From Bradyrhizobium lablabi (GTDB lineage Bacteria > Pseudomonadota > Alphaproteobacteria > Rhizobiales > Xanthobacteraceae): 64,000 nucleotides of DNA. The notes below the pieces were generated by a model. The model was not told the DNA's origin, did not search any database, and saw nothing but the letters and a program-made list of their open reading frames with translations. Both the position numbers and the translations under genes were made by a program. Of this stretch, positions 42,882 through 59,465 are shown piece by piece. The first letter of the stretch is position 1, and every line of letters begins with the position of its first letter. The stretch spans positions 248,001 through 312,000 of the forward strand of contig NZ_JAFCJK010000008.1 of NCBI RefSeq assembly GCF_018131005.1. The letters are read 5' to 3'.

Positions 42882-44254
42882 CCCTGGTCCGGCTGCGGCT
42901 GGCAGGGCTTGCCTCCGCCCTCATCGCTACTGTGCTGCTCGGGCGCGCGCTGGCTTTTCCGGTCGATGGAAACCAGACCGTATTGCCCGCGACGACCGAG
43001 CTGAACGAGGATGCGCTCGACAAGCCGCGTGAAGTGTTCCAGTCGGAGCGGGCCGGCGTCAAATCATATCTCGTGAATCTCGGCGACCTCGCATTCAACT
43101 CGCCGGCGCTACTCGGGGAGGTGGCGCGGCAGGCCGGCATCAGTTGTGGCACTTGCCATGTCAATGGCGCGGGCAACGCCAAGTTCTTCATGCCGAAGAT
43201 GTCGAGCCGGCCAGGAACGTTCGATACGACGGGCCCGTTGTTCAATCCGAAGGCAAACAATCTCGTACTGGACCCCGTGCGGATTCCGAGCCTGCGCGGC
43301 GCCCGATATCTCGCGCCTTATGGTGCCGATGGCCGTTTCGCCTCGCTGCGCGACTTCGTGCACAATGTCATCACCAACGAGTTCGATGGCCCCGAGCCGT
43401 CGTCGGCAATCGTCAATGCAATCGTGGCCTACATTCAGGATATCGATTTCCTGCCCAATCCAAGCCTCAGTCCCGGCGGGCGATTGGTCGCCCAAACGAG
43501 CGAGTCCGAGCGCCGCGGCGAAGTGTTGTTTTCGAAGCCGTTTCCGCACGATGCGGCGATGAGCTGCGCAGGCTGCCACGTTCCGTCCGGCGGCTTCGTC
43601 GATCACCAGCAGCATGACGTCGGTTCGGGCGGCATGTTCAAGACGCCGACCCTGCGTAACGCGGATTTCAACGCGCCGTACTTTCACGATGGTCGCTTCG
43701 GCAATTTCGATCAAGTCGTTGACCATTTCGACCGCACTTTCGATCTCGGCCTGTCGGTGCAGGACAAACGCGACCTCGTCGCCTATCTCACAGCCGTCGG
43801 CGACGGTCTGCTGCCCTTCGAGCGCGATGGTGCGGGTGCAACGCTGAAAGAGATCAATGGCTTCAACACGGTGCTCGCGACGGCAATACCGTCCGGCGAC
43901 AAGGCAACTGTTGCGTTGGCGGTCGATACGATCGGCCGGGAGCTGCGCGAGCTCACCGAGCGATATCCGGATCGGAAGAACACCACCGTGTCAGGCGGCG
44001 AGCAACAGCGCGTGCTGGCGCGCAGCGGATTGAAGGAACTCGTGCTCACGCTTCGGCGAATCGAGATGGCCGTCGACGCCGGACGTAATGCCGACGCGGC
44101 AACGGAGTTCAGGAACTATCGCTATCTGATGGCCGCCGCGGTTCCGGCGTTGCTGGCGAGCGCCGAGCCCTGGTCTCTGTTCAATCAGAGTGTGCATGAC
44201 CAGCACTTCGCCGCGCTTCGTCAAGTCATGCAGTCGAAGCATCTGCCTCACTAA
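42878..44254 (+). CDS. Dihaem cytochrome c peroxidase/MauG-like protein
   Basis: The 458-residue exported protein has a signal peptide (to about residue 26) and two CxxCH sites, CGTCHVNG near 90 and CAGCHVPSGG near 230. PLFNPKANNLVLDPVRIPSLRGARYLAPYGADGRFASL and FKTPTLRNADFNAPYFHDGRFGNFDQVVDHF are family blocks around the haems. It extends about 100 residues beyond usual bacterial peroxidases after DLVAYLTAVGDG, with a helical C-terminal domain resembling the imelysin style. It probably oxidises a metal ion or a protein partner. It is translationally coupled with the EfeM gene. Confidence 0.87.
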   Translation: MTLVRLRLAGLASALIATVLLGRALAFPVDGNQTVLPATTELNEDALDKPREVFQSERAGVKSYLVNLGDLAFNSPALLGEVARQAGISCGTCHVNGAGNAKFFMPKMSSRPGTFDTTGPLFNPKANNLVLDPVRIPSLRGARYLAPYGADGRFASLRDFVHNVITNEFDGPEPSSAIVNAIVAYIQDIDFLPNPSLSPGGRLVAQTSESERRGEVLFSKPFPHDAAMSCAGCHVPSGGFVDHQQHDVGSGGMFKTPTLRNADFNAPYFHDGRFGNFDQVVDHFDRTFDLGLSVQDKRDLVAYLTAVGDGLLPFERDGAGATLKEINGFNTVLATAIPSGDKATVALAVDTIGRELRELTERYPDRKNTTVSGGEQQRVLARSGLKELVLTLRRIEMAVDAGRNADAATEFRNYRYLMAAAVPALLASAEPWSLFNQSVHDQHFAALRQVMQSKHLPH

Positions 44255-44499
44255 CAATCATCAACGCAATGTAGGACCGCGCTGCGCAACGCTCGCAGCA
44301 ATTGCTTCGCCGCGCTCGTTCGTGCATTTGCGGCCGGCGCGCGACCCGCTGTGCATCATCGCGAGTGAGCGTTGCGATGTCCTCGCCGCGAATTTGAATC
44401 GTTCGAAGTTTCTTGCGCGCTTTCACGCCAACGATAAGCGCGCGTCATGTTGTCGCATTAGGCAATGTGTCGCTAAGTGCAACCACCACGAGGTCGAAA

Positions 44500-46569
44500 A
44501 TGACTTTCAAGTACAAGATGAGTTGGCGAACCAGCACGGCGATCTGCGCCGTGTCCACTATGCTCGTCGCAACGGCGGCATACGCCGCTCAATACTCGGC
44601 CGGCCGAAGTGATTGGGACAAGCGTCCTCATCACAATCACCATGAGGGACAGAACAACGACCCAGGCAAGAACGGGGGCAACAACGATCACGGCGACCAG
44701 GGGAAGGATCCCTCCGACCAGGCGAAGACCGCTTCGCCGATCAAGCATGTCATTATCCTGATTGGCGAAAACCGTGGCCTCGACCACACGTTCGGCATCT
44801 ACAAGCCAAAGGGCAAGAAGCAGACGATCTCCAACCTGCTGTCGAAGGGAATCGTCAACGAAGACGGAACGCCGGGACCGAACTTCTCTCAGGCTCAGCA
44901 GTTTTCGGTTGCCGGCCAGCCTTCATTCTATATCGGCGCGCCGACGATCGCAAAGTCGCCCTATAACGCGACCAACACGATGCCGCAGCCAAACACCGCC
45001 GGCACGCCGAGCGCGCAGAGCGACACGTCGGCTCCGTTCAAGACCATCGCGGAAGCCGGTGTCGAGAAGGACATGGATCCCAGCGATCTCGACATCCTCA
45101 CGACCGGTTTCAGCAATTTGTCGAAGAACGTTCTTGATACTCGCGTTCCCGGCGCCGGCAGTCTGAGCGGACCATTCCCGCTGCAGGGACAGCAGATCAG
45201 CGACGACGACTACACCGGCGACACCAGTCATCGCTTCTATCAGGACGTCCAGCAGGAGGACTGCAGCGCCGCCAATGCGACCAAGAGCAACAACTCGGGG
45301 TGCTTGAACGATTTGTTCCCGTTCGTGATGGCGACTTATTCGAGCAGCAACAAGAGCATGGGCAACTCGATGGGCTTCTACAATGCTCAGCAGGGTCAGG
45401 CTCCTGTGCTGAAGATGCTCGCGGACCGTTTCACCCTCGGTGATAACTTCCACCAGTCGTTCCACGGCGGTACTGGCGCCAACCACTTCATGCTGGGCAC
45501 CGGCGATGCGGCCTTCTGGAGCGACGGCAAGGGCAATCCGACGGTGCCGCCGGCAAACTTGATCGCCAACCCAAATCCGGTGACAGGTACGGTCAATCGC
45601 TACACGGTTGACGGCAGTTTCAGCGATTGCTCGGACGTGTTCCAGCCCGGCGTCAAGCCGATCGTCACCTATCTCAGCAACTTGCCGTATGCGGCTGAGC
45701 CGAACTGCAAGCCCAACCACTACTACATGCTCAACAACACCGACCCGGGATATCTGCCGAACGGGGCGCTGGCGGGCGGCAACAGCCTTCCGCCATCGTC
45801 GGTTCGGACCATCGGCGATGCGCTGATGGAGAAAAATATCTCCTGGGCGTTCTATGGTGGCGCGTATAACGACGCCGTGGTGCTGTCCAACGCCGCGGTT
45901 GCCGCCAACCCATCGAAGCCCGATCTCAACGCCGCCGCGCTCGCCGATCCGGCGCACGCGCTCGGAGTCGACAATTGCCAGATCTGCAATCCGTTCCAGT
46001 ATGCGACCTCGATCATGGCCAATCCGGCTGTGCGCCAGGCCCATATGAAGGACACCGCGGATCTGATCACGGCGATCGAGAAAGGCAAGCTGCCGTCAGT
46101 GTCGTTCGGCAAGCCGGACACCCTGCTTGATGGCCATCCGGAGAGCTCGAAGGTGGATCTGTTCGAGGCCTATGTCCTGAACGTGCTCAATGCGCTGGAC
46201 AATAACCCCGAACTCAAGGCCGAGACCGCTGTGTTCGTCACATGGGACGAGGCCGGCGGCTACTGGGACTCCGGCTATACCCAGTCGATCGACTTCTTCG
46301 GCGACGGACCGCGTTTGCCGATCCTGATCCTCTCGCCCTATTCGACGGGCGGCAAGATCTACCACAACTACGGCGACCACGTTTCGTTGCTGAAGTTCAT
46401 CGAACGCAACTGGAATCTCCAGCCGCTCACGAACCGCAGCCGCGACAACCTGCCGAACCCGACGTACTCGAAGAACAATGAGTATGTGCCGACCAACAGT
46501 CCGGCGCTCGCCGATCTCTTCGATGCGTTCGACTTCAGCAAGCCGGTGACCTTGTCCTACACCGAGTGA
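44500..46569 (+). CDS. Secreted phosphoesterase of the phospholipase C/acid phosphatase family
   Basis: The 689-residue precursor starts after CGAGGTCG and has a signal peptide ending near AAYAAQ. A His/Asn/Asp-rich linker follows (residues about 43-75, with HHNHHEG). The catalytic domain starts with IKHVIILIGENRGLDHTFG (metal-binding Glu-Asn), has DNFHQSFHGGTGANHFMLG with the nucleophile region, and VTWDEAGGYWDSGY with the last metal ligands. The family hydrolyses phosphate esters or phospholipids outside the cytoplasm. Position after the secretion cluster makes it a likely type II secretion substrate. Confidence 0.88.
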   Translation: MTFKYKMSWRTSTAICAVSTMLVATAAYAAQYSAGRSDWDKRPHHNHHEGQNNDPGKNGGNNDHGDQGKDPSDQAKTASPIKHVIILIGENRGLDHTFGIYKPKGKKQTISNLLSKGIVNEDGTPGPNFSQAQQFSVAGQPSFYIGAPTIAKSPYNATNTMPQPNTAGTPSAQSDTSAPFKTIAEAGVEKDMDPSDLDILTTGFSNLSKNVLDTRVPGAGSLSGPFPLQGQQISDDDYTGDTSHRFYQDVQQEDCSAANATKSNNSGCLNDLFPFVMATYSSSNKSMGNSMGFYNAQQGQAPVLKMLADRFTLGDNFHQSFHGGTGANHFMLGTGDAAFWSDGKGNPTVPPANLIANPNPVTGTVNRYTVDGSFSDCSDVFQPGVKPIVTYLSNLPYAAEPNCKPNHYYMLNNTDPGYLPNGALAGGNSLPPSSVRTIGDALMEKNISWAFYGGAYNDAVVLSNAAVAANPSKPDLNAAALADPAHALGVDNCQICNPFQYATSIMANPAVRQAHMKDTADLITAIEKGKLPSVSFGKPDTLLDGHPESSKVDLFEAYVLNVLNALDNNPELKAETAVFVTWDEAGGYWDSGYTQSIDFFGDGPRLPILILSPYSTGGKIYHNYGDHVSLLKFIERNWNLQPLTNRSRDNLPNPTYSKNNEYVPTNSPALADLFDAFDFSKPVTLSYTE

Positions 46570-46678
46570 GCGTAGCCTCGCCTAGAAGCAAGTCCTAAAT
46601 CAGCGCCGGCCGAACCTATGGTTCGATCGGCGCTGCCATGTCTCCGCCTCCTCAAGAGTTGAAAGCCGAGTGCAAGCA

Positions 46679-47359
46679 ATGAAGCGCAAGCAGACGATGC
46701 CGCCAGGAATGAACGTCACCGCACGCCTGCTTGCCGTTGTCGGCCTTGCGTTGACGACGATGCCGGCCGGCGCCCAGCAATTTTCGGCCGATCTCGTCGC
46801 CACGAAGGGGGAGAGCGCGACACGCATAGGCAAATTGCTTGTGTCGGAAGGCAAAGCGCGGATTGAGACGACGGCGCTTCCCGACGGCTTCCTGCTCGTC
46901 GATGCGGCGAGGGTTGCAGCCTATTTCGTCCGTCCGGCCGCCCGTGTTTTCATGGATGCAAAGCGATCGAGCGATCTTACGCAGATGTTCGTCCCGCTTG
47001 ATCCCGAGGATCCTTGCCGGCAGTGGCGCGCGATGGCGGCATTGGCCGCGCCGGCGGCTCTGACCGTGTGGCGTTGCGAGCGCGCCGGCGAGGGAACAGT
47101 CGGCGGACGTACAATGTCCGCCTACAAGGTCGAAGGAGATGGCTTCAGCTTCGTCGGCTGGGTCGATCGCGATCGCAAATTTCCGCTGCAGGTCAGGACC
47201 GCCGATGGGACAACGATCGCCGTCGAGCGGGTCCGTGACGAGCCGCAGCCTGCGCAATCGTTTGAGATTCCGCCCGGCGCACGGAAATTTGACCCGCAAG
47301 CGCTGATCCGCCTTATGCAGCACAGCGACGCGTGGGTTGCCCCACCGGCTTCGGAATGA
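46679..47359 (+). CDS. Exported protein of unknown function between two phosphoesterases
   Basis: The 226-residue product (ATG at 46679; a GTG at 46670 adds three residues) has a signal peptide ending near PAGAQQF. The mature part is predicted beta-rich with a repeated strand pattern (FSADLVATKGESATRIGKLLVSEGKARIETTAL, then TVGGRTMSAYKVEGDGFSFVGWVDRDRKFPLQVRT), which recalls the LolA/LppX or DUF4412 fold of lipid-binding periplasmic proteins. One cysteine pair (EDPCRQW and VWRCERA) may form a disulfide. I do not recognise a named family. Confidence 0.65.
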   Translation: MKRKQTMPPGMNVTARLLAVVGLALTTMPAGAQQFSADLVATKGESATRIGKLLVSEGKARIETTALPDGFLLVDAARVAAYFVRPAARVFMDAKRSSDLTQMFVPLDPEDPCRQWRAMAALAAPAALTVWRCERAGEGTVGGRTMSAYKVEGDGFSFVGWVDRDRKFPLQVRTADGTTIAVERVRDEPQPAQSFEIPPGARKFDPQALIRLMQHSDAWVAPPASE

Positions 47360-47439
47360 TCCCGTCGCCCTTGTGTCCACGCTACAGCTACTATTGTCGT
47401 TGGCTCGTCGGCAGCAGGATGCGCCCGAGCGCGGCGTAG

Positions 47440-48951
47440 TGGGATCTCGTCGCCTATCTGACGGCCATAGGCGACGGCGAGCGCCCGCTCGAGAAGGACG
47501 GCGTCATGATCCGGATGAAGGAAGTGCGGAACGACGTCAACCTGACGTCGCCCTCGCCGCTGCAGACGAGCTGCACCGACAGCACCGGTTCGGTGGCGAT
47601 CCTGAGCGCGTTCAAGAACCAGCCGTTCGAGATCAACGACTTCATTCCGACGTCGGCGACCACTTGTCCGAAGCCGGTCGGTGCCTTGGCAGCTCATGGC
47701 TTTGCCAACGGCACCGGCTTGCCCGGCGGCTGCACGGAGGACATCGTCCATCGCTTCTACAGCGAGCAGTATCAGATCAATGGCGGCCGGCAGAACCGCT
47801 ATGTGACCGGCAGCGATGCTGCGGGTCTTGTCATGGGCTACTATGACACCAGGAAGCTGCCCATCTACCTCTATCTTCATGGCGGCGGCGCGCCGAATTA
47901 CGTGATCGCCGACAGCTTCTACCAGTCCGCATTTGGTGGTTCGTTCCTCAATCACCAGTTCCTGGTCGCCGCCGCCGCGCCGCAATTCGTCGGCGCGCTG
48001 AACGACGGCAGCGCCAACGATCTGCACTCGATCGTTGACGCCAACGGCATGCCGACCAGCACGCCGCTCTACACGCCCACAGCGACTGTGCAGGACGCGC
48101 AATTGACCGCGAAATGCGGTCAGAGGGGCCTGCCTGCGGGGCTCGCCTGCGGCGACTACGCGGTCAACACCACGCAGCCGTTCTATCAGCCGTTTTTCCC
48201 CGGCACGGCAGACGCGAAACGTCTGCCGCCGCTGCATGCGCCCAACATCGGCGATCGGCTGTCGGCAAAGAAGGTCGACTGGGCCTGGTACGCGGGCGGC
48301 TGGTCAAATGCCAATGGTGACGTCGGTGGGTCCGGCTGGACCAATGGCAACGGAACGACCTGTACCGATCCGAACCATCTTCCCACGGCGGTGTTTCCGA
48401 ACTGCCCGGACGTCGACTTTCAGTTCCACCACCAGGCGCTGAACTATTTCGCCAGCTATGCGCCGGGAACGACGGCCCGCAGGGACCACCTGAAGGACGA
48501 AGCGGAGTTCATTCAGGCGGCCAAAAACGGCACGCTGAAGGACGTGAGTTTCATCAAGCCGATTGGCGAGGAGACTGAGCATCCGGGCTATACCAGCGAA
48601 AGCGAAGGCAGCCAGCATCTGGTCGATCTGGTCAAGGCGATCGTCGAAGGACCTGATGGCAAGGACACGCTGATCATCATCACCTATGACGAGTTTGGCG
48701 GACAGTGGGATCACGTGCCGCCTCCGCCGTACAATCGTCAAGGTGCCGATGCCGAGGCCGCGGACAAGTGGGGACCGGGCACCCGTATTCCCACGCTGCT
48801 GATCTCCAAGCAGTTCGACAGGTCGGGTGTTGCGCATGAGGACTATGACACCACGTCGATCCTCAAGCTGCTGGAACAGCGCTTTGATCTCCAGCCGCTG
48901 GTGACGCGCCCTGTGCGTGATCTGGCGGTCGCGCTGAAGGCCGCGGACTAA
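47440..48951 (+). pseudogene. Truncated phosphoesterase fused to a dihaem-peroxidase relic
   Basis: The frame opens after a TAG at 47437 and first reads WDLVAYLTAIGDGERPLEKD, which matches the DLVAYLTAVGDGLLPFERD segment of the dihaem peroxidase at 42878. Around MKEVRN it passes in frame into a phosphoesterase: DVNLTSPSPLQ, DSFYQSAFGGSFLNHQFL (nucleophile region) and ITYDEFGGQWDHVPPPP (metal ligands). The signal peptide and the N-terminal ENHSFDN metal-binding segment are missing. The first ATG is at 47506, which would give 481 residues. The enzyme would be neither exported nor active, so I call it a pseudogene, though the 3' frame is fully intact. Confidence 0.72.
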
Positions 48952-49313
48952 GAGCGGCACGCGAGCAACCACGTTCGACCGCATCACGGAGCGGGACAGA
49001 ATCGAAGTCGATCAGGCCTGCCGGATGATATCCGGCGGGCCTGAATTTTTGTCTGACGACAGCCTCGGCCGACGCGGGCGTGTGGGGCTCGCCGGCACCT
49101 CGAGACAGTTGGAAGTGCGTTCGCGAGGCGGCCGCTGTCCGGATTCGGCAAGCTCATGAAGCACGAATTGCGTGCCGCCTATTGGGAGACAAGCGCCGCA
49201 GCATCGGCATCGGGTGATTACGACAGGGTGCGGAACGCGTGCTTGGACGGAGCAGGGCACTCTCGATGAAAGAAGCGAGGCCTCCGGCGGCACGACACAG
49301 CGGCGCCGGAGGG
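48952..49313. other. Intergenic region after the phosphoesterase relic
   Basis: This 362-bp stretch holds the strong terminator at 49013-49051, listed separately. Between the terminator and the 3' end of the adenylation-reductase gene I see no credible gene or motif. Confidence 0.5.
49013..49051 (+). terminator. Rho-independent terminator
   Basis: CAGGCCTGCCGGA at 49013 pairs with TCCGGCGGGCCTG ending at 49043, around a TGATA loop and with one mismatch; AATTTTTG follows directly. It lies 62 bp after the truncated phosphoesterase stop and is the clearest intrinsic terminator in the window. Because the genes on either side converge, it would also shield each from the other. Confidence 0.85.
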
Positions 49314-52300
49314 CTAGGATGCCGTCGCCACGAAACCGATTGAATTCTCAAGATACCGAGTCAGTTCTTTGTCGTTGAATCTCGGTTCTTCAATTCCACT
49401 CCCCTTGAGAAAGCTCGTCACGTTCTTGCAGCCCCAGCGATAGGTGTCTTGGTACAGCTCCACCGTTGAGCGTCCGTCGTACATATTGTCCCTGAACAGG
49501 CTGAGCAACGGATAGAGTGGCGCCTCGCGGTTGTCCTTCCACTTGCCCAGCCACTCCGCGAACGGAATGACGTCGAACTTCACTCCGACGTGAGGCTCAA
49601 GCAACGAAAAGAACTGCTTCAACGTAAGATTGTTTTCGTCGGAGTGAATCAGGTTGAATTTTTTGGTAAGGGCCGCCGGATTCCTTGAAATATGGACAAT
49701 GGCGCGCGTCATGTAGTCGATGGTCGTCAGACCTTCGCGCAGATCGCGTAGATCGGGTATGGCGCCGAATTTGATACACGTTTCGACTAGGCGCCCCCAC
49801 CATTGATAGCTCGCACTCAGCCCTGTGCGGCTGTTAAACGTCGCATAGCCCAACCGGAATGTCATCAGCGGCAATCCGTGCGCGGCTGCAAGGTCGGCGA
49901 TTTTCTCCATCACCCATTTGCTGCGCACATAGCCAATATCCGTCAGGACGGCGGGGAGGTTCTGGTCGATGTCGTCTTCTTCTGTCATGACCGTCTTGCC
50001 GGTGTGCAGATGCCCCCAACTGTAGACGGATATCGTTGACAGGAGGATCAGCGCCTTCAGCTTGTCGCTGGCAGCGAATGAAATGATCTGCTTAAGCCCG
50101 TCTACGTTGTCCTTCTTCATGTATGAATACGGTTGAATGAAGTTGACGGCGCTGGCCGAGTGATAAATCACATCGACGTCGCTGGACAGCTTCATGTAGT
50201 TGCCATGTGCCATGCCGAACTCGGCGAGCGAAAGATCGGCAGCGTACGCAATGACCCGGCTACGATCCTCGATCCCAATCCGGTAGGTCGCGAGCTTGTC
50301 GTCGATCCTCGACCTCGCTTCGGCATCGTTGGGCGCCCGCACCGGGCAATGGATGACAGCGTTGGTCGTCGCAAGCAGATCGGAGAGCAGATGGGCACCG
50401 ACAAATCCGGTCGTGCCAGTCAGGAGAATATGGCGGGGCCGCTTCAACGCGTCGATATCAAACGGGCTGTTCAGCACAATTCCGGCCGGAAGCTCGATAT
50501 CGTTGCGCAACTCGTGGATGGGCTCCGCGTCGATCTCGGGTAGTCGTTCGCTTTGCATCCGCGACCGGATATGTGCGGCAAGCGCGGTCACAGTCTGATA
50601 CTGGTACACGTCGCGCATATAGGCTTTGCTGTTGAGCCGTTCCTCGAGCGTCAAAACCACTTCGGCAACTAGCAGGGAATGTCCGCCTACGTCGAAAAAG
50701 CTGTCTCGGCGGCCAAAGTCGCTGTGCTTCAGCACCGTACGGAACACATCGAAAACAAGCCGCTCCATGGAATTCGGGTCCGCACGGCTGTCGACTGACG
50801 CTGGAGATCCCGCAGCGAACTGCGCGCGCAATGCCGCTTTGTCGGTCTTGCCGTTCACGGTAAGCGGCATGTCGCGCAGTTCGATGTAGCGCCCCGGTCT
50901 CATGTAGTCAGGCAGATGTGTACGCACGTTCTCCCTGATCGATTCGACAATTTGTGCAAAGGGGGCGGTCGCCCCATTGGTCACGAGGAAAGCTACAACC
51001 TCTCTCGCGAGATCGGCGTCCCCGCCTGTCACGATAACGGCTACCTTTTTGATCCCTTGCTGAGTGGCGAGAAACGACTCAATCTCCCCGAGTTCGACGC
51101 GGTTTCCGCGAATCTTTACCTGCTCGTCGCCGCGGCCGAGGTATTGAACGGTTCCGTCGGGCAGCCACCGAGCCAGGTCGCCTGTGCGATACATACGCGC
51201 CCCGGATCGGGTGGGGTGCGGTACGAACCTGTCGCGTGTCAGCCCCTCGTTGTTAAGGTAGCCGCGTGCAAGACAAGAGCCGGCGATGAACAGTTCGCCG
51301 ACTTCCCCTCGAGGCCGCTCCTTGAACTCCTCGTCAAGAATAAGGATCTCCGTATCGGTAACCGGGCGACCGATCGATTCCGGTTTTCCTGACGCAGAAC
51401 CTGGTACGTAATGAACAGTGGCGAAGATCGTGGCCTCTGTTGGCCCGTAATAGTCGATTAGCGAATAAGAGACACCTTCAGTATCGACTGGCTTCAGCTT
51501 TTCGCCCGCCGTGAACAGGTACGTTAGCGAACTATCGCGATTGCGGGTGGCATTGACCACGTTTGGGACCATCACGGTCGGCACAAACGCATGCGTAATG
51601 TCGTTCCGGCGATAGAAATCCGTTAGCAGATCGACATCCAACCGCTTTTCATCGTCCAGAATATGCAACGTCGCTCCCGCGCAGAGTGGCGACCAGATCT
51701 CCCACTGGCAGACATCGAAACCCAGGCCGGCCATCAAGGTATGGCGGCTGGCTGATGTGACCTCGAATTTGTCGTTATGCCATTGAATCAGACTGGTCAC
51801 CGCTTGGTGCTCGACGACGACACCTTTCGGTACACCGGTCGTGCCCGATGTGAAAATGACATAAATCGGATCTGCCGGGGACGGTCTTGCCGACAAGGAA
51901 ATCCGGTTCGCGGCAGCCTTCGCGGACAACGACGCCACGCTCACGCGGGTCCACCTGTCCAAGGGTTCACTCTCGTAGCCGTCGCGCTCGCCGGCAGTGC
52001 TAAGCAGGATGGGCGATCCGATTTGCTCCAGAATGAGCTTTTTTCTCTCAATGGGGTGTTTGTGGTCAATGGGAGCGTATACCGCATTGGCCTTCAGAAC
52101 GCCGATGATGGCCACAATATAGTCGATCGAGCGCGTCGCTTCGATGGGAACGAGCGCTCCGCCCTTGACTCCGTTTTCCAGCAGGAAGCGAGCGACCGCG
52201 TCGCTGCGCGCCGCTAGCTCGCCATAGGTCAGGGGCGCCTGTCCACTTACGAGAGCGATTCCATCTGGCGCCGAGCTAACCTGATTATCGAATAAGTCCA

Positions 52301-52319
52301 GGACGGTTCTGATGTTCAT
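49314..52319 (-). CDS. Stand-alone adenylation-carrier-thioester reductase (A-T-R) enzyme
   Basis: The 1001-residue protein has three domains. The adenylation domain (1 to about 510) has YVIFTSGTTGVPKG, YGPTEATI, YRTGDLARWLPDG, KIRGNRVELGEIE and the lysine in TVNGKTDKAAL. A carrier domain (about 530-605) has FFDVGGHSLLVAE with the phosphopantetheine serine near 548. A C-terminal extended short-chain reductase (about 625-1001) has LLTGTTGFVGAHLL, LSTISVYSWG and YVRSKWVMEK. It would load an amino or carboxylic acid, hold it as thioester and release it by NADPH as an aldehyde or alcohol. There is no condensation domain. Substrate residues read by eye as D-V-W-T-F-A-Y-I-F-K. It stands alone and looks less GC-rich than its neighbours. 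Confidence 0.88.
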   Translation of the reverse strand: MNIRTVLDLFDNQVSSAPDGIALVSGQAPLTYGELAARSDAVARFLLENGVKGGALVPIEATRSIDYIVAIIGVLKANAVYAPIDHKHPIERKKLILEQIGSPILLSTAGERDGYESEPLDRWTRVSVASLSAKAAANRISLSARPSPADPIYVIFTSGTTGVPKGVVVEHQAVTSLIQWHNDKFEVTSASRHTLMAGLGFDVCQWEIWSPLCAGATLHILDDEKRLDVDLLTDFYRRNDITHAFVPTVMVPNVVNATRNRDSSLTYLFTAGEKLKPVDTEGVSYSLIDYYGPTEATIFATVHYVPGSASGKPESIGRPVTDTEILILDEEFKERPRGEVGELFIAGSCLARGYLNNEGLTRDRFVPHPTRSGARMYRTGDLARWLPDGTVQYLGRGDEQVKIRGNRVELGEIESFLATQQGIKKVAVIVTGGDADLAREVVAFLVTNGATAPFAQIVESIRENVRTHLPDYMRPGRYIELRDMPLTVNGKTDKAALRAQFAAGSPASVDSRADPNSMERLVFDVFRTVLKHSDFGRRDSFFDVGGHSLLVAEVVLTLEERLNSKAYMRDVYQYQTVTALAAHIRSRMQSERLPEIDAEPIHELRNDIELPAGIVLNSPFDIDALKRPRHILLTGTTGFVGAHLLSDLLATTNAVIHCPVRAPNDAEARSRIDDKLATYRIGIEDRSRVIAYAADLSLAEFGMAHGNYMKLSSDVDVIYHSASAVNFIQPYSYMKKDNVDGLKQIISFAASDKLKALILLSTISVYSWGHLHTGKTVMTEEDDIDQNLPAVLTDIGYVRSKWVMEKIADLAAAHGLPLMTFRLGYATFNSRTGLSASYQWWGRLVETCIKFGAIPDLRDLREGLTTIDYMTRAIVHISRNPAALTKKFNLIHSDENNLTLKQFFSLLEPHVGVKFDVIPFAEWLGKWKDNREAPLYPLLSLFRDNMYDGRSTVELYQDTYRWGCKNVTSFLKGSGIEEPRFNDKELTRYLENSIGFVATAS

Positions 52320-53135
52320 GTTTCAGTGCTCTCATCTGAGAAGCATGGATGTGACCACGAGAAGCGCAGAAATATTTGACGCGCTGCCGTTGCATATGAA
52401 GCGCCCGATGCGACGCCAGCATTACGAGACGGACGGAGTCCTATTACGGTTGCAATAAAGCAGCGACCTGATCGCTCGACATCGCGACAGCGATGCGTTC
52501 AAGAGAAACTCCGAAGGCACGAGGTCAAACTGCGAAGTGCACATGCGGCGCTGCGAGGACCGTGAGGGCTGGGAAATGCTCTGGGCGCGCGGGCTCGAGC
52601 CGATCGTCGTCCGAACCTTGCGCGACGCGATCAAAGAAAGGCTGGTGATGGCGAACCAGATGCCGTCCGTGGGCGGCACCATCCGGGATTGGGCCATCCC
52701 GCTCAGTCGTCAAAGCCAATCCGTTCGAGAAGAACAGAGACCTGGAAATCCCGGATCGCGGTCATGTGCCGTGGCCTGCGTGGGTTGTCGCAAGCGACGC
52801 CTGACTTGGTGCGGATGATGGTCAGGATGGGCCGGAGCACCGCGACGGCAAAAATGGCATCTGGTGCCAGCCAAAGAAGACCTGCGAGCGCCGCCGCGCG
52901 ACCCTGATCCAGTTCACCACGGCTGACGTGCTCGAACTCGATCGCTGGGCCGAAACGCCGGTCAGATGAAGGCCGCTGCGGATGGTCGCAAGCGACTGCA
53001 GATCGCTGGCAAGGGGGACTAGACCATGAACCAACATGCAGCTATATCGCACTCTCCGAAGGCCGGGTTTTGCCAGAAAGCTAGCGAAACCCCGCTGGAA
53101 TTTCGGGAGAAGTCGAATGAAATCATCGACTTCGA
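52320..53135. other. Gene-poor region upstream of the A-T-R gene and tRNA-Gln
   Basis: 816 bp without a gene I can support. The first 130 bp should contain the A-T-R promoter. From about 52706 to 52969 a plus-strand frame reads like protein but is interrupted by a stop (listed separately). TCGCAAGCGAC occurs twice (near 52788 and 52987). The whole region looks like decayed DNA beside a tRNA gene. Confidence 0.45.
52706..52969 (+). pseudogene. Possible decayed gene fragment with an internal TGA
   Basis: In one plus-strand frame the translation runs VVKANPFEKNRDLEIPDRG, then HVPWPAWVVASDA, a TGA at 52802, and continues as GKNGIWCQPKKTCERRRATL and IQFTTADVLELDRWAETPVR to a TGA at 52967. Both halves have an amino-acid make-up like real protein. 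There is no start codon with a ribosome-binding site. I recognise no family; this is a weak call. Confidence 0.2.
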
Positions 53136-53209
53136 TGGGGAATGGTGTAACGGTAGCACAACAGACTCTGACTCTGTTTGTCTTGGTTCGAATCCAGGTT
53201 CCCCAGCCA
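53136..53209 (+). tRNA. tRNA-Gln (anticodon CUG)
   Basis: The 74-nt gene folds as a standard cloverleaf: acceptor arms TGGGGAA and TTCCCCA pair fully, the anticodon stem ACAGA/TCTGT encloses CTCTGAC with anticodon CTG, and GGTTCGAATCC forms the T arm. G discriminator and CCA are encoded. It reads CAG glutamine codons. It stands alone between gene-poor stretches, a common target position for integrating elements, but I see no repeated copy of its 3' end in the window. Confidence 0.95.
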
Positions 53210-53293
53210 GATTCCCCGGAAACGCCAAACATGTGAAACCACTCAGTTTCTTCTGGCGGGGTGGCCGACGTACCCCAACGCCACTAGGGGTGG

Positions 53294-53764
53294 TCAAAAA
53301 TGGGTTGCGCGACCAAGCCAATCGGCGGCCAGAGGGACGTTCTGGAACTGCTTCACAACTACGTTCTTGGCCAAAATCAACTGAATGCTTCCGATTGAAA
53401 GCCGCCCAAAAAACGAGTGTGACGGTATCGCCGCGACGCGCTTGAGGCCCAGGGCTTGCGCTCGGGGAAGCCATTCCTCGATGATCCATCGCTGATCTTC
53501 CGCGTGAACGATTGGCAATTCCCTATCATCGCCCAAGAGGCTTTGAGCTCCGGTCCCCTCCATCACCTGCAGAAGAGCCTCGTGAAGAAAGCGGAGCTGA
53601 GCGCTCGTTGCATATTTTCGCCAGACCACTTTGATGCACGAGAGATCTTCGTCGTGAGTGAAGGAACATACGGGGTTGTCGCTGGGGTTTTTGACTACCA
53701 GCGCCCCATCAAGTGATTCGCTTCGGACCGTTTCCGTAAGACTTGCGAGAGAGTCAGCGGTCAT
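53294..53764 (-). CDS. Conserved-looking small cytoplasmic protein of unknown function (STAS/SpoIIAA-like fold possible)
   Basis: I start at the ATG at 53764 because GAGGA lies eight bases upstream, giving 156 residues; a GTG at 53800 adds 12. The central block LPIVHAEDQRWIIEEWLPRAQALGLKRVAAIPSHSFFGRLSIGSIQ resembles a group of small STAS/SpoIIAA-like proteins of unknown role with an ED-QW-I-W-PRA motif. There is no signal peptide or membrane helix. It is convergent with the tRNA gene, 84 bp apart. Confidence 0.6.
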   Translation of the reverse strand: MTADSLASLTETVRSESLDGALVVKNPSDNPVCSFTHDEDLSCIKVVWRKYATSAQLRFLHEALLQVMEGTGAQSLLGDDRELPIVHAEDQRWIIEEWLPRAQALGLKRVAAIPSHSFFGRLSIGSIQLILAKNVVVKQFQNVPLAADWLGRATHF

Positions 53765-54418
53765 CCGCGCGTCCTCGATCAAATCGAATCTCCGAACCAC
53801 GATAGCAGCTAGTTCCTGCGGAAGAACTTAGGAAATTGGGCGTAGTGCCGTCTCCCGCGCCATTCGGTGGACTTCTCGTGACTGTTTGAGATGCCGCGGC
53901 TCGTTGAAGCGTAGTTGCTCTTCGCCCTGCTGTGCATGGGGTAGGGCTCAGTGGCCGCCCGTGCGCCAAGGTTGCCGTCAGATTCCACGCTTACCATCAC
54001 CGCTGGCTTGTTCGCGTCGATGCCATGAGCTCGAGCTGGCTGGCGGACGAGGCTTCGCTGCGGACCGTCGAGAATCCGGCGGGCGCGCGGTAGCAAGTTT
54101 GTCTGGATGCAATCTGCACCGGTGACCCCGGCACCTGCGGTCGGCGAGAGGGAGGCCAGCTCATTCGGCAAAACTGGTCGCTCCCGGCGCGCCTGCGGAA
54201 GCGCGGCACGCGGGAAGATCACTGCACTGCACATTCTCGTTGCAGCGACTTTAGTCGCAAGCCATCGGTCTCGGCAGCGCCTCAACTTGCCGGTTCCGGA
54301 CGGCCATGCAATGCTGGCACACCAAGAAAAACAAAAGGGGGAAGGCGGCAGGCTTGGATCGCCGGACGTTTTTCCGCCCGATGAAAAATCGCCAGGTGGG
54401 ATGTTCGGAGATGATCAT
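53765..54418. other. Intergenic region upstream of livK
   Basis: 654 bp. Open frames exist on both strands but none has a ribosome-binding site and recognisable sequence; the longest, on the minus strand to 54285, is rich in Arg, Ala and Ser like a shadow frame. The last 120 bp probably hold the promoter of the transporter operon and a purine-rich stretch (AAACAAAAGGGGGAAGG). Confidence 0.4.
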
Positions 54419-55672
54419 ATGAGATTTTCGAAATTTGTAGCGCTGCTGTCCGTGGCCGCGATCTCGGTGGGTCTGGCTTCAGGCGCGTTGGCGCAGCAGA
54501 AGACCGTCAAGATCGGCGCGGTGTTTCCGCTGACCGGCAATGCCGCGAGCGCCGGCGTGCACGCCAAATACGCGATTGAAGTCGCGCTCGACATTATCAA
54601 CAACGCACATCCGGAGCTTGGCAATCTCCCGCTCGCCAAGAATGCCGGTCTTGCCGGCCTCGGCGGCGCCAAGGTCGAGGTCGTTTTTGCCGATAACCAG
54701 GGCAGCCCCGCGACCGGACAGAATCAGGCGCTGCGACTGATCACGGAAGAGAAGGTGGTGGCGCTCACCGGTGCCTATCAGTCCGGTATCACGCTGACTG
54801 CAAGTGCGATCTCCGAGAAATACGGTATTCCGTTCGTCAATGGCGAGTCCGTTGCGGCGAACCTCACCGAGCGCGGATTCAAATGGTTCTTCCGCACCAC
54901 GCCGGTCGCGACCGACTTTGCCAAGGTCTATTACGACTTTCTCACCGACATGAAGGCGTCCGGCGCCAAGACCGACACTATCGCGCTGGTGCACGACACC
55001 ACCGAATATGGCGCCTCCGTCGCCAATACCATCAGCACGATCTTCAAGGAGAAAGGGCTTTCGATCGCGCAGGACGTCGCCTACACGACCAACGCGACCG
55101 ACGTGCAGAGCCAGGTGCTGCAGCTCAAGGACAAGAAGCCCGACGTCGTCATCATGATCTCCTATACGTCGGATGCGATCCTGTTCGCCAAGACGATGCA
55201 GGCGCTCGACTACAAGCCGCCGATGCTGCTCGCCGACGACGCCGGCTATTCCGATCCGTCGTTCCTCAAGGCGGTCGGCAAGATTTCGCAAGGCGCATTC
55301 AACCGCTCGTCCTGGAGCGTCGGCGCGCCGGGCTCGCCCACCGCGCTGATCGCCAAGATGTATAAGGAGAAGAGCGGCGACGAGATGGACGACACCGCCG
55401 CGCGACAGATGCAGGGCTTCTTCGTGCTGATCGATGCGATCGACCGTGCCGGCTCGACCGACCCCGCCAAGATCCAGGCCGCGCTGAAGGCGACCGATCT
55501 GAAGCCGGACCAGCTGATGATCGGCTTCAAGGGCGTCAAGTTCGACGACAAGGGCCAGAACATCCTGGCCTCGGGTCTGATCATCCAGTTGCAGGACGGC
55601 GAGAACTACGTCGCGGTTTTTCCGAAGGCGAATGCCGAGAAGCCGCCGGTCATGCCATACAAAGGCTGGTGA
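54419..55672 (+). CDS. livK: Branched-chain amino-acid-type ABC transporter, substrate-binding protein
   Basis: The ATG at 54419 has GGAG eight bases upstream and gives 417 residues; an upstream open extension to 54107 is not credible because a signal peptide (MRFSKFVALLSVAAISVGLASGALAQ) starts here. The mature protein has the type I periplasmic-binding fold: VKIGAVFPLTGNAASAGVHAKYAIEVALD, ALTGAYQSGITLTASAISEKYGIPFVNGES and IALVHDTTEYGAS. It captures the ligand for LivHMGF. In rhizobia these systems import many amino acids, amides or aromatic acids, so leucine is not assured. Confidence 0.9.
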   Translation: MRFSKFVALLSVAAISVGLASGALAQQKTVKIGAVFPLTGNAASAGVHAKYAIEVALDIINNAHPELGNLPLAKNAGLAGLGGAKVEVVFADNQGSPATGQNQALRLITEEKVVALTGAYQSGITLTASAISEKYGIPFVNGESVAANLTERGFKWFFRTTPVATDFAKVYYDFLTDMKASGAKTDTIALVHDTTEYGASVANTISTIFKEKGLSIAQDVAYTTNATDVQSQVLQLKDKKPDVVIMISYTSDAILFAKTMQALDYKPPMLLADDAGYSDPSFLKAVGKISQGAFNRSSWSVGAPGSPTALIAKMYKEKSGDEMDDTAARQMQGFFVLIDAIDRAGSTDPAKIQAALKATDLKPDQLMIGFKGVKFDDKGQNILASGLIIQLQDGENYVAVFPKANAEKPPVMPYKGW

Positions 55673-55754
55673 CAGTGAGCCGAGGGCGGAGGCTCCAGCT
55701 TCCGCCCGTACTGCTGCCGTCAATGGCGACGGCATCATCTGATAGACGGCGGCG

Positions 55755-56618
55755 ATGTCCATAGTCCTTGTCCAGGTGATCGTGGGGGGCCTCCTGCTCG
55801 GGGCCGTCTACGCGTTGTTCTCCTCCGGCCTGACGCTGGTGTGGGGGATGATGAACGTGGTCAATTTTGCCCACGGCGATTTCGTCATGCTCGGCATGTA
55901 CGTCGCCTACGTGGTTTACACGTTGTTCGGTGGCGGCCCGCTGTTCGGCGCGCCGCTCGCAACGCTGCTGCTCGCCACGCTCGGGGTTATTGTCTATTTC
56001 GGCCTGATCCGCGACATCATGAAGGGGCCGATGCTGGCGCAGATCCTCGGCACCTTCGGGCTGGCGCTGCTCTTGCGCTACTCCGTATTCTGGTGGTTTG
56101 GCGCCAATTTCCTGTCGCTGCCGGAAAATCTTGTCGGCGGCACGTTCGATATCTTAGGCATCCGCATCCAGGCCTCGCGACTGCTTGCGGGCGTCGTCGC
56201 GCTGCTGGTGACGCTCGGCCTCCATCTCTTGCTGACACGCTCGACGCTCGGCTCGCGGATGCTCGCGGTCGCCGAGGATTCGACGGCCGCGCAATTGATG
56301 GGCATTCGCCCCGACAGCATGCAGGCGATCGCCTGGGCGATCGCCGCCGGCGCCACCGGACTTGCCGGTGCGCTGATCGCCACGTTCTTCTATGTCGTGC
56401 CCACTGTCGGCGAGACCCTCGGCATCGTCGCCTTCGTCACCGTGTCGCTCGGCGGTTTCGGCAGCGTGCCGGGCGCGCTGATCGCGGGACTCCTGATCGG
56501 CGTGATCGAGTCGCTGTCCGGATACCTGATCGGCGCGATCTACAAGGACATGGTGGTCTACGCGCTGTTTCTCGGCTTCCTCTGGTTCAGGCCGCAGGGT
56601 CTGATGGGCAAGACGTGA
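55755..56618 (+). CDS. livH: ABC transporter permease LivH
   Basis: The 287-residue inner-membrane protein has about eight helices. VNFAHGDFVMLGMYVAY is the family block in the second helix, GSRMLAVAEDSTAAQLMGI is the loop that contacts the ATPases, and VSLGGFGSVPGALIAGLLIGVIESL is the conserved late segment. It forms the channel with LivM. It begins 82 bp after livK. Confidence 0.92.
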   Translation: MSIVLVQVIVGGLLLGAVYALFSSGLTLVWGMMNVVNFAHGDFVMLGMYVAYVVYTLFGGGPLFGAPLATLLLATLGVIVYFGLIRDIMKGPMLAQILGTFGLALLLRYSVFWWFGANFLSLPENLVGGTFDILGIRIQASRLLAGVVALLVTLGLHLLLTRSTLGSRMLAVAEDSTAAQLMGIRPDSMQAIAWAIAAGATGLAGALIATFFYVVPTVGETLGIVAFVTVSLGGFGSVPGALIAGLLIGVIESLSGYLIGAIYKDMVVYALFLGFLWFRPQGLMGKT

Positions 56619-57595
56619 TGCGCCGCTATCTCTGGCTCCTCATCGCGCTGGCAATCGTCATCGCTTACCCGTGGATTTTCTCCACTCCGTTCCAGCAGCG
56701 GCTCGGCGCGTTGGTCCTGCTTTATGCCATCGCGGCCTCGGCCTGGAACATCATCGGCGGCTATGCCGGCCAGGTCTCGGTCGGACATGTCGTGTTTTTC
56801 GGGTGTGGCGCTTATGCCGCGATGGGAGCGTATGCGCATTATGGCCTGTCGCCGCTGGTTGGAATACCGGTGGGTTTCGTCGCCAGCGTCGCGATATCAG
56901 CCGTGGTCGGTGTGCCAACGTTGCGGCTTTCCGGCCACTACTTCAGCATGGCGACGATCGCCGTCGCCGAGCTCGCGCGATTGATCGTGACCAACACCGA
57001 GTATCTGGGCGCTGCGGTGGGGCTGAGCGGCCCGACCGTGCCGCGCAACGTGTTCGATCTCTCCTTCATCTCGGCGCTGCCTTACTATTATCTCTTCCTT
57101 GCCGTCCTCGCGATCACGCTCCTGCTCACATGGTGGATGACCAACAACCGCATGGGCTTCTATCTGCGTGCGATCAAGGATTCCGAGCGCGCCGCGCGCT
57201 CGCTTGGCGCGCCGGCAAGCCGCACCAAGCTTTATGCCTATATGCTCAGTGCCGGCCTCACCAGCGTTGCCGGGGCGCTTTATGCGATGATGTTCGGCTT
57301 TGTCGATCCGGAATCCGGCCTCGGTATCCTGATCTCCGTGAAAATCCTTATCATGGCCGCGCTCGGCGGCGCGGGCCTGCTGTTAGGGCCGCTGGTCGGC
57401 GCGGCGATCCTGGTGCCGCTCGAGGAAATCTCCAACAGCCTGCTCGGCGGCAAGGGGGCCGGCCTGACCTTCGTCGTCTATGGCGCCATCATCGTGCTGA
57501 TCGCGCGCTTCCAGCCCGGTGGGCTTCTGGCGCTGGCCAACCGGCTCTGGGCGCAACGCAAGGCGCGCGAGAAGGGAGCATCCCATGCTCCTTGA
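56618..57595 (+). CDS. livM: ABC transporter permease LivM
   Basis: The ATG at 56618 overlaps the livH stop by one base. The 325-residue protein has about nine helices with LLYAIAASAWNIIGGYAGQVSVGHVVFFGCGAYAA, the LivM hallmark, RAIKDSERAARSLGAPASRTKLYAYMLSA as ATPase-contact loop and MAALGGAGLLLGPLVGAAIL near the end. It is the channel partner of LivH. Confidence 0.92.
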   Translation: MRRYLWLLIALAIVIAYPWIFSTPFQQRLGALVLLYAIAASAWNIIGGYAGQVSVGHVVFFGCGAYAAMGAYAHYGLSPLVGIPVGFVASVAISAVVGVPTLRLSGHYFSMATIAVAELARLIVTNTEYLGAAVGLSGPTVPRNVFDLSFISALPYYYLFLAVLAITLLLTWWMTNNRMGFYLRAIKDSERAARSLGAPASRTKLYAYMLSAGLTSVAGALYAMMFGFVDPESGLGILISVKILIMAALGGAGLLLGPLVGAAILVPLEEISNSLLGGKGAGLTFVVYGAIIVLIARFQPGGLLALANRLWAQRKAREKGASHAP

Positions 57596-58355
57596 GGCGC
57601 GCGAGATCACAAAGGCGTTCGGCAGCTTCAAGGCGGTGAACGCCGCGAGCGTCACGCTGGCGCAAGGCGACATCCTCGGCCTGATCGGCCCGAACGGTGC
57701 CGGCAAGTCGACCTTCTTCAATTGCCTGACCGGCGATCTTGCCGCGACCTCGGGCAGGGTGTTCTTCGAAGGCCACGACATCACCAATCTGTCGCCGGAG
57801 GCGAGGGCGCGGCTCGGACTGGCGCGCACGTTCCAGGTGCCGCAGACCTTCGAGGGCATGACGGTACTCGAGAACGTGATGATCGGCGCCTTTCTGCGCA
57901 CCTCGCATCGCGCCGAGGCCGAGGCGAAGGCCCGCGCGGTGCTGGCGCGCGTCGGCATGGAGCGGCTCGCGGCGGCGCCCGCACGCTCGCTCGGCACGCC
58001 CGGCCGCAAGCGGCTGGAGATCGCGCGCGCGCTCGCAACCGAGCCGAAGGTGCTGCTGCTCGACGAGGCGATGGCGGGGCTGACCCAACGCGAGGTTCAG
58101 CTTGCGATCGATCTCGTGCGCGACATCCATCGCTCGGGCGTCACGCTCGTGATCGTCGAACACATCATGGAAGTGATCATGTCGCTGGCGAGCCGCGTCA
58201 TGGTTTTTCACCAGGGCAAGGAGATCGCGCGCGGCACGCCGCAGGAGGTGACGTCCAACCCCGCCGTGATCGCCGCCTATCTCGGCACCCGCGCCGCCGC
58301 CAAGGTTGCCGCCGGCCACACGCCGATCGAGTTGATGGGCGGGCCCCCGACATGA
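57585..58355 (+). CDS. livG: ABC transporter ATP-binding protein LivG
   Basis: The start lies inside the end of livM (GGGAG upstream). The 256-residue ATPase has Walker A GPNGAGKST, Q-loop RTFQVPQTFEGMTV, Walker B VLLLDEAMAGL and a switch His in IVEHIMEVI. The ABC signature deviates: LGTPGRKRLEIARAL stands where LSxGQ is expected. A degenerate signature of this kind occurs, as far as I recall, in a LivG subgroup. It energises import with LivF. Confidence 0.92.
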   Translation: MLLEAREITKAFGSFKAVNAASVTLAQGDILGLIGPNGAGKSTFFNCLTGDLAATSGRVFFEGHDITNLSPEARARLGLARTFQVPQTFEGMTVLENVMIGAFLRTSHRAEAEAKARAVLARVGMERLAAAPARSLGTPGRKRLEIARALATEPKVLLLDEAMAGLTQREVQLAIDLVRDIHRSGVTLVIVEHIMEVIMSLASRVMVFHQGKEIARGTPQEVTSNPAVIAAYLGTRAAAKVAAGHTPIELMGGPPT

Positions 58356-59068
58356 CCGGCGCCTTGCTGAAGATCGAGCATCTCGAAGTACGCTACGGCG
58401 ATTTGATCGGCGTATCCGACGTGTCGCTGGAAGTGCCTCTGGGCAGCGTGGTGGCACTGCTCGGCTCCAATGGCGGCGGCAAGACCACGACACTGAACGC
58501 GATCGCCGGCCTCATTCCGGTGCACTCCGGCTCGATCAGCTTTGCTGGTGAAGAGATCGCGGGCGAGAGCGCATTCGCGATCGTGCGCAGGGGACTGGCG
58601 CTGTCGCCGGAGGGCTGGCGGCTGTTCGTGCAGCAGACCGTCGAGAACAATCTGTTGCTCGGCGCGACGCCGCTGCGCGACAAGGCCCGCATCAGGGCGC
58701 TGCTCGAGCGCGTCTACGATATCTTCCCGCGATTGAAGGAGCGCCGCACCCAGCGCGCCGGCACCATGTCCGGGGGTGAAAGGCAAATGCTCGCGGTCGG
58801 CCGCGCGCTGATGTGCGATCCGAAGCTCCTGATGCTGGACGAGCCGTCGCTCGGGCTCGCGCCGGCGGTCGTCGAGTCCATGTACGAGACCTTTGGCCGT
58901 CTGCACCGCGAGGGCCTGACGATTTTGCTTGCCGAGCAATCGATCGAACTCGCGCTGGAGGTGTCCGACTTTGCCACCGTGCTGCAGGTTGGCAAAAGCG
59001 TGTTGTCGGGGACGGCCGCCGCGCTTGCCGAGGATCCGCAGGTGCAGAAAGCCTATCTCGGCGCGTAG
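58352..59068 (+). CDS. livF: ABC transporter ATP-binding protein LivF
   Basis: It overlaps livG by 4 bp (ATGA). The 238-residue ATPase has Walker A GSNGGGKTT, the canonical signature MSGGERQMLAVGRAL, Walker B LLMLDEPSLGLAPAV and switch-loop LLAEQSIELAL, where a Gln replaces the usual His (E-Q), as is common in LivF. With LivG it forms the nucleotide-binding pair. It is the last gene of the operon; a repeat element follows. Confidence 0.93.
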   Translation: MTGALLKIEHLEVRYGDLIGVSDVSLEVPLGSVVALLGSNGGGKTTTLNAIAGLIPVHSGSISFAGEEIAGESAFAIVRRGLALSPEGWRLFVQQTVENNLLLGATPLRDKARIRALLERVYDIFPRLKERRTQRAGTMSGGERQMLAVGRALMCDPKLLMLDEPSLGLAPAVVESMYETFGRLHREGLTILLAEQSIELALEVSDFATVLQVGKSVLSGTAAALAEDPQVQKAYLGA

Positions 59069-59110
59069 AGCGTGATGAGATCAAGTCGAGTAGCAACCGC
59101 GAAGGAATTG

Positions 59111-59261
59111 CGCTCCCTCTCCCCGTACTTGCGGGGAGAGGGTTGGGGTGAGGGGCCGCCTCCGCGTAAACGGCGACAGAAGAATCCGCGGAAGGCTCCC
59201 CCTCACCCGGAACGCATCTTACGATGCGTTCCGACCTCTCCCCGCAGGCGGGGCGAGGTGC
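59111..59261. repeat. Composite palindromic repeat (CTCTCCCC-type)
   Basis: The left part has CTCTCCCCGTACTTGCGGGG followed by AGAGGGTTGGGGTGAGGGG. The right part repeats it inverted, CCCCTCACCC then ACCTCTCCCCGCAGGCGGGG, with an inner hairpin GGAACGCATCTTACGATGCG. The full unit can form one long cruciform. Elements with these words are frequent between genes in Bradyrhizobium and other high-GC bacteria, by memory. Confidence 0.7.
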
Positions 59262-59334
59262 AAGGAGCCAGCAGCTGAACCGATTCACCTGACTTCATCC
59301 CACTCTAGATGGTGCCGAGTGCGAGCAGCTCGCG

Positions 59335-59465
59335 ACAAAATTGCAAAACAATTTTGCGCGGAAGCGACGACTTGTCCGCCGAAGCCTCGGCGTAGGCGGA
59401 AGCAACCCATTGCGGCCGACGTTCGCGGGGCGCGATGGATTGCTTCGCTTGCGCCCGCAATGACG
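59335..59465. repeat. Second intergenic repeat
   Basis: It begins with an inverted repeat (AAAATTGCAAAACAATTTT) and ends GATGGATTGCTTCGCTTGCG then CCCGCAATGACGGGA. The ending is familiar from many alphaproteobacterial intergenic repeats. It abuts the end of the pump gene. Confidence 0.5.

Follow-up and report, generated by a model that had tools for sequence, protein, structure and literature searches.

A predicted one-gene adenylation-carrier-reductase enzyme acquired by Bradyrhizobium lablabi belongs to a scattered clade with an aromatic-lined binding pocket

A single gene in the 64,000-nucleotide stretch of Bradyrhizobium lablabi DNA analysed here (contig NZ_JAFCJK010000008.1, positions 248,001 to 312,000, hereafter the window) encodes an enzyme consisting of an adenylation (A), a thiolation or carrier (T) and a reductase (R) domain. 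This A-T-R gene is intact and was acquired by its present host, and it is a member of a scattered group of stand-alone A-T-R enzymes which, judged from their sequences, have an unusual aromatic-lined binding pocket. The enzyme is probably a stand-alone single-module reductase of the nonribosomal peptide synthetase (NRPS) type, which would reduce a single small amino acid to the corresponding amino aldehyde, to be followed by pyrazine formation or by further reduction. The activation and reduction chemistry itself is very likely, going by the protein families to which the domains belong.

The initial annotation had described activation, tethering and reductive release as functions of one gene, and the domain searches bear this out. 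In the 1001-residue protein Pfam detects AMP-binding (residues 10-355, 1.4e-67), AMP-binding_C (412-491), PP-binding (524-584, 9.6e-11) and NAD_binding_4 (633-874, 5.2e-51); condensation (C), epimerization and thioesterase families are absent among the five Pfam families of the protein. The NCBIfam models for the amino acid adenylation domain (AA-adenyl-dom, 379.8 bits) and for the thioester reductase domain (328.6 bits) both score above their cut-offs (317.4 and 213.35 bits, respectively). There is one R domain, which ends at residue 992 of 1001, thus the protein has no R1-R2 tandem, and with A, T and R in one polypeptide and no C domain it is a single-module enzyme of the ATRed type. The reductase of MxaA (4u7w) aligns with the R part with 150.6 bits, through the nucleotide-binding motif and the Y-x-x-x-K motif. 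A possible loss of catalytic residues, a concern of the initial annotation, was checked by alignment of 29 sequences: the phosphopantetheine-carrying Ser548 and the reductase residues Tyr797 and Lys801 are invariant, hence intact, and the catalytic Thr762 is replaced by Ser in some relatives. The AlphaFold2 model has a mean predicted local distance difference test score of 87.0 over the 1001 residues, with values below 50 only at residues 112-117 and 505-515 and in the last residues, and the top Foldseek match of the model is the A-T module of LgrA (34% identity over 599 columns). The window gene is the sole full-length match in its own genome. We observed in the same genome another lone NRPS-like protein of 911 aa (G000:C35:372524-374155; L002:643-3378), which by eye reads as adenylation and carrier domains with a thioesterase-like end.

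The description of the gene as an orphan holds for the locus, where it stands alone, but not beyond it: it is one of at least 40 rows of a conserved clade. An earlier search of genome contigs with the single protein yielded no loci, and a profile search with a four-protein alignment yielded 44. The locus search relied on two short peptide patterns and cannot have picked up members in which neither is present. The tree contained 45 rows, i.e. the 44 loci, three copies from the plasmid collection and the window gene minus L065, L073 and L075, plus 20 outgroup rows. L073 (two frames) and L075 (containing Ns and cut by a contig end) were left out as full rows, and L065, which has an 813-aa open frame, was kept in the alignment and dropped from the tree. 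In this tree, a quick maximum-likelihood search with midpoint rooting, no bootstraps and some long outgroup branches, 40 rows including the window gene form one clade with a support of 100 in the Shimodaira-Hasegawa-like approximate likelihood ratio test (SH-aLRT). Their open reading frames (ORFs) are 989-1076 aa long, and they come from Pseudomonadota and Actinomycetota (Burkholderia, Paraburkholderia, Lysobacter, Dyella, Serratia, Halomonas, Vibrio, Photobacterium, Pseudomonas, Nocardia and others). The sister group consists of five Bacteroidota rows (SH-aLRT 100), whose pocket codes are different; two of the five (L077 and L079) carry the related reductase module within proteins of 2040 and 1953 aa that have an extra upstream A-T unit. 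The window gene pairs with that of Paraburkholderia mimosarum (SH-aLRT 100, 80% amino acid identity), then with P. madseniana (99) and then with Burkholderia multivorans (99), and is thus nested inside Paraburkholderia.

In the genus, phylum and order samples two or three first-look candidates were scored per genome. In the phylum sample one of 398 genomes, its own, matched at E 1e-130. Among 394 sampled genomes of the order to which the Serratia genome G673 belongs, 10 matched at E 1e-100, with only G673 itself exceeding 37% identity. We found no characterised member of the clade in the open-access literature searched. Two records filed as Staphylococcus phages (OR845000.1 and OR849920.1) contain an NRPS stretch matching 83% of the query at 28% identity; this is probably host DNA in phage records, and our guess is that it represents aureusimine synthetase.

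The substrate is best discussed from the binding pocket. Residue positions are given in GrsA numbering, with a mapping of the pocket columns that we assume to be correct. The initial annotation read the code as D-V-W-T-F-A-Y-I-F-K; the fourth letter was wrong, since alignments with LgrA and with relatives both place Phe at position 278, and the corrected code is DVWFFAYIFK. The same columns in control A domains read DAWTIAAVCK, DAWFLGNVVK, DVWHFSLVDK, DILQLGLIWK and DALWLGGTFK, which we take to be the textbook codes. Among the 39 non-redundant clade rows DVWFFAYIFK (15 rows) and DVWYFAYIFK (seven rows) are the commonest codes; variants resemble DLAFYCCIFK in five Pseudomonas rows and DVLFFACIFK in four Halomonadaceae rows. 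The Asp noted earlier as the first pocket residue, Asp235, is kept in 39/39 rows, and so is Lys517; this Asp normally contacts the free alpha-amino group of the substrate. Positions 278, 299 and 331 carry an aromatic residue in all 39 rows. Counted over eight pocket positions, five residues are aromatic in 30 rows, four in two and three in seven, which gives a mean of 4.6, compared with 1.2 (none above 3) in 53 other A domains picked by similarity to the query rather than as a random sample. The eight positions have a mean conservation of 0.82 against 0.59 for the whole A domain, but 29% of the A-domain columns are equally or more conserved, thus it is the aromatic make-up of the pocket that is exceptional and not its conservation. 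The layout is like that of the Ser code DVWHFSLVDK, but the polar pocket residues are replaced by apolar, mostly bulky ones. Relative to Leu and Ser pockets this replacement suggests a small apolar side chain, and we tentatively propose Ala or Gly, because the pocket appears crowded. Fragments of the pocket code gave no match in the open-access papers searched, and the accessible portion of PMC10979478 contains no code of an Ala reductase.

The steps that we propose are as follows. The A domain would activate one small alpha-amino acid with ATP, consistent with the retention of Asp235 and Lys517. The amino acid would then be loaded onto the phosphopantetheine arm of Ser548, which the Sfp-type phosphopantetheinyl transferase (PPTase) of the genome would attach, and the R domain would use NAD(P)H to release the alpha-amino aldehyde. 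As there is no condensation domain, we propose the aldehyde as the enzyme's product. Two aldehyde molecules would then pair to a dihydropyrazine, which would be oxidised to a symmetric pyrazine, or the aldehyde would be reduced to an amino alcohol. The text available from PMC7586950 describes ATRed of Xenorhabdus indica as a single A-T-R gene giving a Phe-derived pyrazine both in X. indica and in E. coli, with an aldehyde route proposed. By analogy with this enzyme we give dimerisation to a pyrazine slightly less than an even chance.

Genes adjacent to the enzyme in other members of the clade bear on the fate of the aldehyde. Of 105 neighbouring ORFs selected by a simple rule, 77, together with L033:13602-14585, were scanned with Pfam (78 in all, none from the window). 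Across the clade the A-T-R gene lies mostly in unrelated places. There are four neighbour links in sub-lineages, none of them at the window locus. A methyltransferase gene follows the A-T-R gene in Photobacterium halotolerans (L053, after 16 bases) and in Lysobacter enzymogenes (L043, after 477 bases); the two methyltransferases are homologous (blastp about 2e-50), and their closest solved protein, with 92 bits, is ToxA, which we take to be the toxoflavin N-methyltransferase. An FAD-binding oxidase gene precedes the A-T-R gene in L. antibioticus and P. humisilvae (L050 and L052), a short-chain dehydrogenase/reductase (SDR) gene follows it in two P. aeruginosa loci (L054 and L035), and in four Halomonadaceae (L046, L048, L051 and L056; Pfam on L048 only) an Sfp-type PPTase gene lies 56-150 bases downstream on the opposite strand. 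In L. antibioticus the A-T-R gene is also closely followed by a gene (L050:13051-15510) for a fusion of a methyltransferase and a cysteine-desulfurase-like class V aminotransferase. It seems that the enzyme is the core and that the neighbours are optional modifiers of a nitrogen-containing product.

The methyltransferase, SDR and FAD-oxidase genes show that partners exist in sub-lineages, and the available part of PMC7586950 states that an aldehyde released by an R domain can undergo a second reduction, to the alcohol. These observations would fit an enzyme that makes an amino alcohol by four-electron reduction, or that supplies an aminoacyl group to a partner encoded elsewhere. We regard this as quite improbable for the window enzyme: no partner gene was recognised at the window locus or among the four neighbours named by Pfam at the P. 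mimosarum locus L036 (phasin, transposase, recombinase and autotransporter), and the R-domain motifs do not discriminate between aldehyde and alcohol formation.

Several observations weigh against the proposed conversion of a small amino acid to an aldehyde. The predicted template modelling score of the structural model is only 0.56, thus the placing of the domains relative to each other is unsure. The methyltransferase, FAD-oxidase and SDR genes mean that in the sub-lineages concerned the pathway may continue beyond the aldehyde. The initial annotation stated that the code matches no standard code, and this is true of the corrected code as well: it shares at most five of ten letters with any of 33 known codes, the best matches, Val and Ser, being tied, so that prediction of specificity from the nearest known code was uninformative. 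The Gly code among the control domains, DILQLGLIWK, is unlike that of the window enzyme. Pockets for Ala or Gly are not usually so rich in aromatic residues, and an N-methylated cation would fit such a pocket as well.

The last point leads to a different substrate. The aromatic wall and the Asp could instead hold a small quaternary ammonium compound, in which case the enzyme would reduce a small acid with a quaternary or N-methylated nitrogen, for instance glycine betaine, to betaine aldehyde, with an aromatic cation-pi cage and Asp235 as binding elements, and would be a bacterial one-reductase counterpart of the fungal A-T-R1-R2 enzyme. In the fungal enzyme, ATRR, cation-pi contacts reportedly set the specificity, as Hai et al. 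are said to have found in 2019. The high count of aromatic pocket residues in the clade and the SDR genes that follow in P. aeruginosa would agree with such a function, and B. multivorans has an OpuAC-type gene 1.6 kb and a sarcosine oxidase gene about 8 kb from the A-T-R gene. In addition, the part of PMC11050029 available describes fungal ATRR as converting betaine to choline and a nematode homologue as relieving betaine inhibition in yeast. Even so we consider betaine reduction by the window enzyme unlikely. A free alpha-amino group is the usual contact of Asp235, there is one R domain only, only a single locus was found to have an OpuAC relative within 6 kb, the FAD-oxidase and methyltransferase neighbours better fit specialised metabolism, and seven of the 39 rows have only three aromatic pocket residues. 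The more general proposal, that the clade represents horizontally spread bacterial one-gene reductases whose Asp-plus-aromatic cation-pi cage takes glycine betaine or a near relative to betaine aldehyde or an N-methyl amino aldehyde, appears to us more doubtful still. We retain the reduction of a small amino acid to an amino aldehyde as the preferred function.

The acquisition suspected by the initial annotation from base composition is supported by several lines of evidence. The GC content of the gene (0.569) is below that of all 610 segments of 3006 bp taken in steps of 100 along the 64 kb (median 0.634) and close to that of the P. mimosarum gene (0.567). In its own genus the gene was found at high identity in one of 265 genomes, the one carrying it; a further 15 contain NRPS modules that match at E 1e-100 with 33-38% identity, and none of the 264 others exceeds 38%. 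At the DNA level the similarity to the P. mimosarum locus L036 (82% identity) extends over the gene and 37 bases upstream, and comparison of L036 with positions 40001-60000 of the window gave no further match. Immediately downstream of the P. mimosarum A-T-R gene there are genes for a DDE transposase and a resolvase-type recombinase, in keeping with a mobile gene, and together with the position in the tree these data indicate that the gene probably came from a Paraburkholderia-like bacterium. The stretch that has no match in the relatives compared contains the gene and little else (Table 1). To its left, three genomes of the genus align as far as 48947, mostly at 75-85%; to its right, the alignment with one genome begins at 52463 (66% identity), and other genomes align with the tRNA-Gln gene and the importer operon beyond it. 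A single mobile island covering the whole low-GC region of 43-55 kb was considered and rejected, because both flanks match other genomes of the genus. In those relatives that have both flanks these lie apart, thus a rearrangement may also have occurred.

A lone gene of foreign GC content, present at this level in one of 265 genomes of the genus, might be a decaying, non-functional acquisition. This is very improbable in view of the 1001 open codons and intact motifs, and the comparison with the P. mimosarum gene (nonsynonymous divergence 0.107, synonymous divergence 0.666, ratio about 0.16, averaged over both lineages) also argues against decay.

The immediate surroundings offer no obvious partner. 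The initial annotation reported no condensation domain, tailoring enzyme, PPTase or exporter next to the gene, and among the window ORFs scanned we likewise recognised none beside it. For the PPTase this needs to be qualified: none adjoins the gene and none is on its contig, but an Sfp-type enzyme (4PPT_N and ACPS above cut-off) is encoded elsewhere in the genome, where the matches are confined to two other contigs. Among the left-hand neighbours Pfam recognises a MauG-like protein and two phosphoesterases of family PF04185; on the right lies tRNA-Gln followed by a branched-chain amino-acid ATP-binding cassette importer, which matches the relatives and is thus native. The two PF04185 genes, of the acid phosphatase / phospholipase C type, lie close together at 44413-46569 and 47506-48951 (+); the second scores 325.1 bits on the acid phosphatase model, just below the cut-off of 362.75. 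Farther upstream of these secreted-looking MauG and phosphoesterase genes, at about 35378-40671 (+), there are ORFs that by eye resemble type II secretion genes (GspF-, GspJ-, GspK- and GspL-like).

Table 1. Positions of the A-T-R gene, its domains and the boundary features in the window.
Feature	Position	Strand	Basis
A-T-R enzyme gene, 1001 aa, ATG start	49314..52319	-	ORF call, Pfam/NCBIfam, AlphaFold2 model
Adenylation domain, residues 10-500; predicted code DVWFFAYIFK at residues 202, 203, 206, 245, 269, 271, 290, 298, 299, 491	50820..52292	-	Pfam, alignments
Carrier (thiolation) domain, residues 524-584; phosphopantetheine attachment Ser548 in GGHSL	50568..50750	-	Pfam, alignment
Thioester reductase domain, residues 630-992; nucleotide-binding TGTTGFVG 634-641; catalytic Thr762, Tyr797, Lys801	49344..50432	-	NCBIfam, MxaA (4u7w) alignment
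Stretch without match in the relatives compared, about 3.5 kb, gene and little else	48950..52460		synteny comparison
tRNA-Gln(CTG), native right-side marker	53136..53209	+	tRNA call, synteny

A transferable gene predicted to suffice by itself for the synthesis of a complete small molecule comes near to the smallest possible biosynthetic pathway. The pocket of the clade differs, across Pseudomonadota and Actinomycetota, both from the known codes used for comparison and from those of the 53 other A domains, and the substrate of one member should hold for every row whose code is identical or almost identical. Should the product be a volatile pyrazine or an amino alcohol signal, the clade would account for a trait that soil and plant-associated bacteria share across several genera. 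Binding of betaine in the pocket would add a reductive step to bacterial choline metabolism, and if the cation cage is real, the clade would offer a reductive entry to choline and osmolyte metabolism, or a new class of N-methylated signals, in Proteobacteria and Actinobacteria.

It is useful to compare the window enzyme with known A-T-R systems. Carboxylic acid reductases (CAR) have the same A-T-R logic with NAD(P)H-dependent aldehyde release, and the R domain of CAR (5mso) is weakly similar (57 bits). The Lys2-type alpha-aminoadipate reductase likewise activates, tethers and reduces an amino acid, in that case to a semialdehyde; its code, which we take to be DPRHFVMRAK, differs from that of the window enzyme. 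The same domain order is also found in PvfC/MgoA/HamD, which have roles in the formation of fragin and pyrazine N-oxides and in mangotoxin regulation, and next to PvfC/MgoA a gene for a haem-oxygenase-like protein (PF14518, PvfB/HamC) is expected. The common domain order might suggest that the window enzyme belongs to one of these characterised families, but we find this extremely improbable. The enzyme scores 124.1 bits on Carboxyl_red (NF041592, cut-off 1300) and 360.3 bits on alpha_am_amid (TIGR03443, cut-off 1030.1), which, on family score only, rules out both the carboxylic acid and the alpha-aminoadipate reductases. PF14518 has no match in the B. lablabi genome, and none of its 31 matches in 12 enzyme-carrying genomes lies within 30 kb of a window-type enzyme. 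Five of these 12 genomes, all Pseudomonas, have a second A-T-R gene (30-32% identity) at most 2 kb from a PF14518 gene; there are six such pairs read by coordinates, two of them with a PF14518 match under the cut-off. Four PvfC-like rows, identified by the neighbouring gene and not by annotation, form a clade of their own (SH-aLRT 100, branch length 1.92). Thus the PvfC-like genes are separate in the tree and have a PF14518 neighbour that the window enzyme lacks, hence the latter is not PvfC.

The closest solved A-T fold is the initiation module of LgrA, in which A and T are followed by a condensation domain and not by a reductase. The fungal and nematode ATRR proteins, compared by description, have a similar NRPS-like A-T-R front and possibly a cation-binding aromatic pocket, but according to the part of PMC11050029 available they contain a second reductase domain, R2, which is missing from the window enzyme. 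Two single-module A-T-R genes in other genomes of the order of G673 have the codes DAFFLGVTFK and DAFFLGVVFK and are about 30% identical to the window enzyme. The X. indica ATRed (Xind01729), which uses Phe, consists of the same single A-T-R module; the likeness is one of architecture, and by this analogy the idea of a one-enzyme route to an aldehyde has a precedent.

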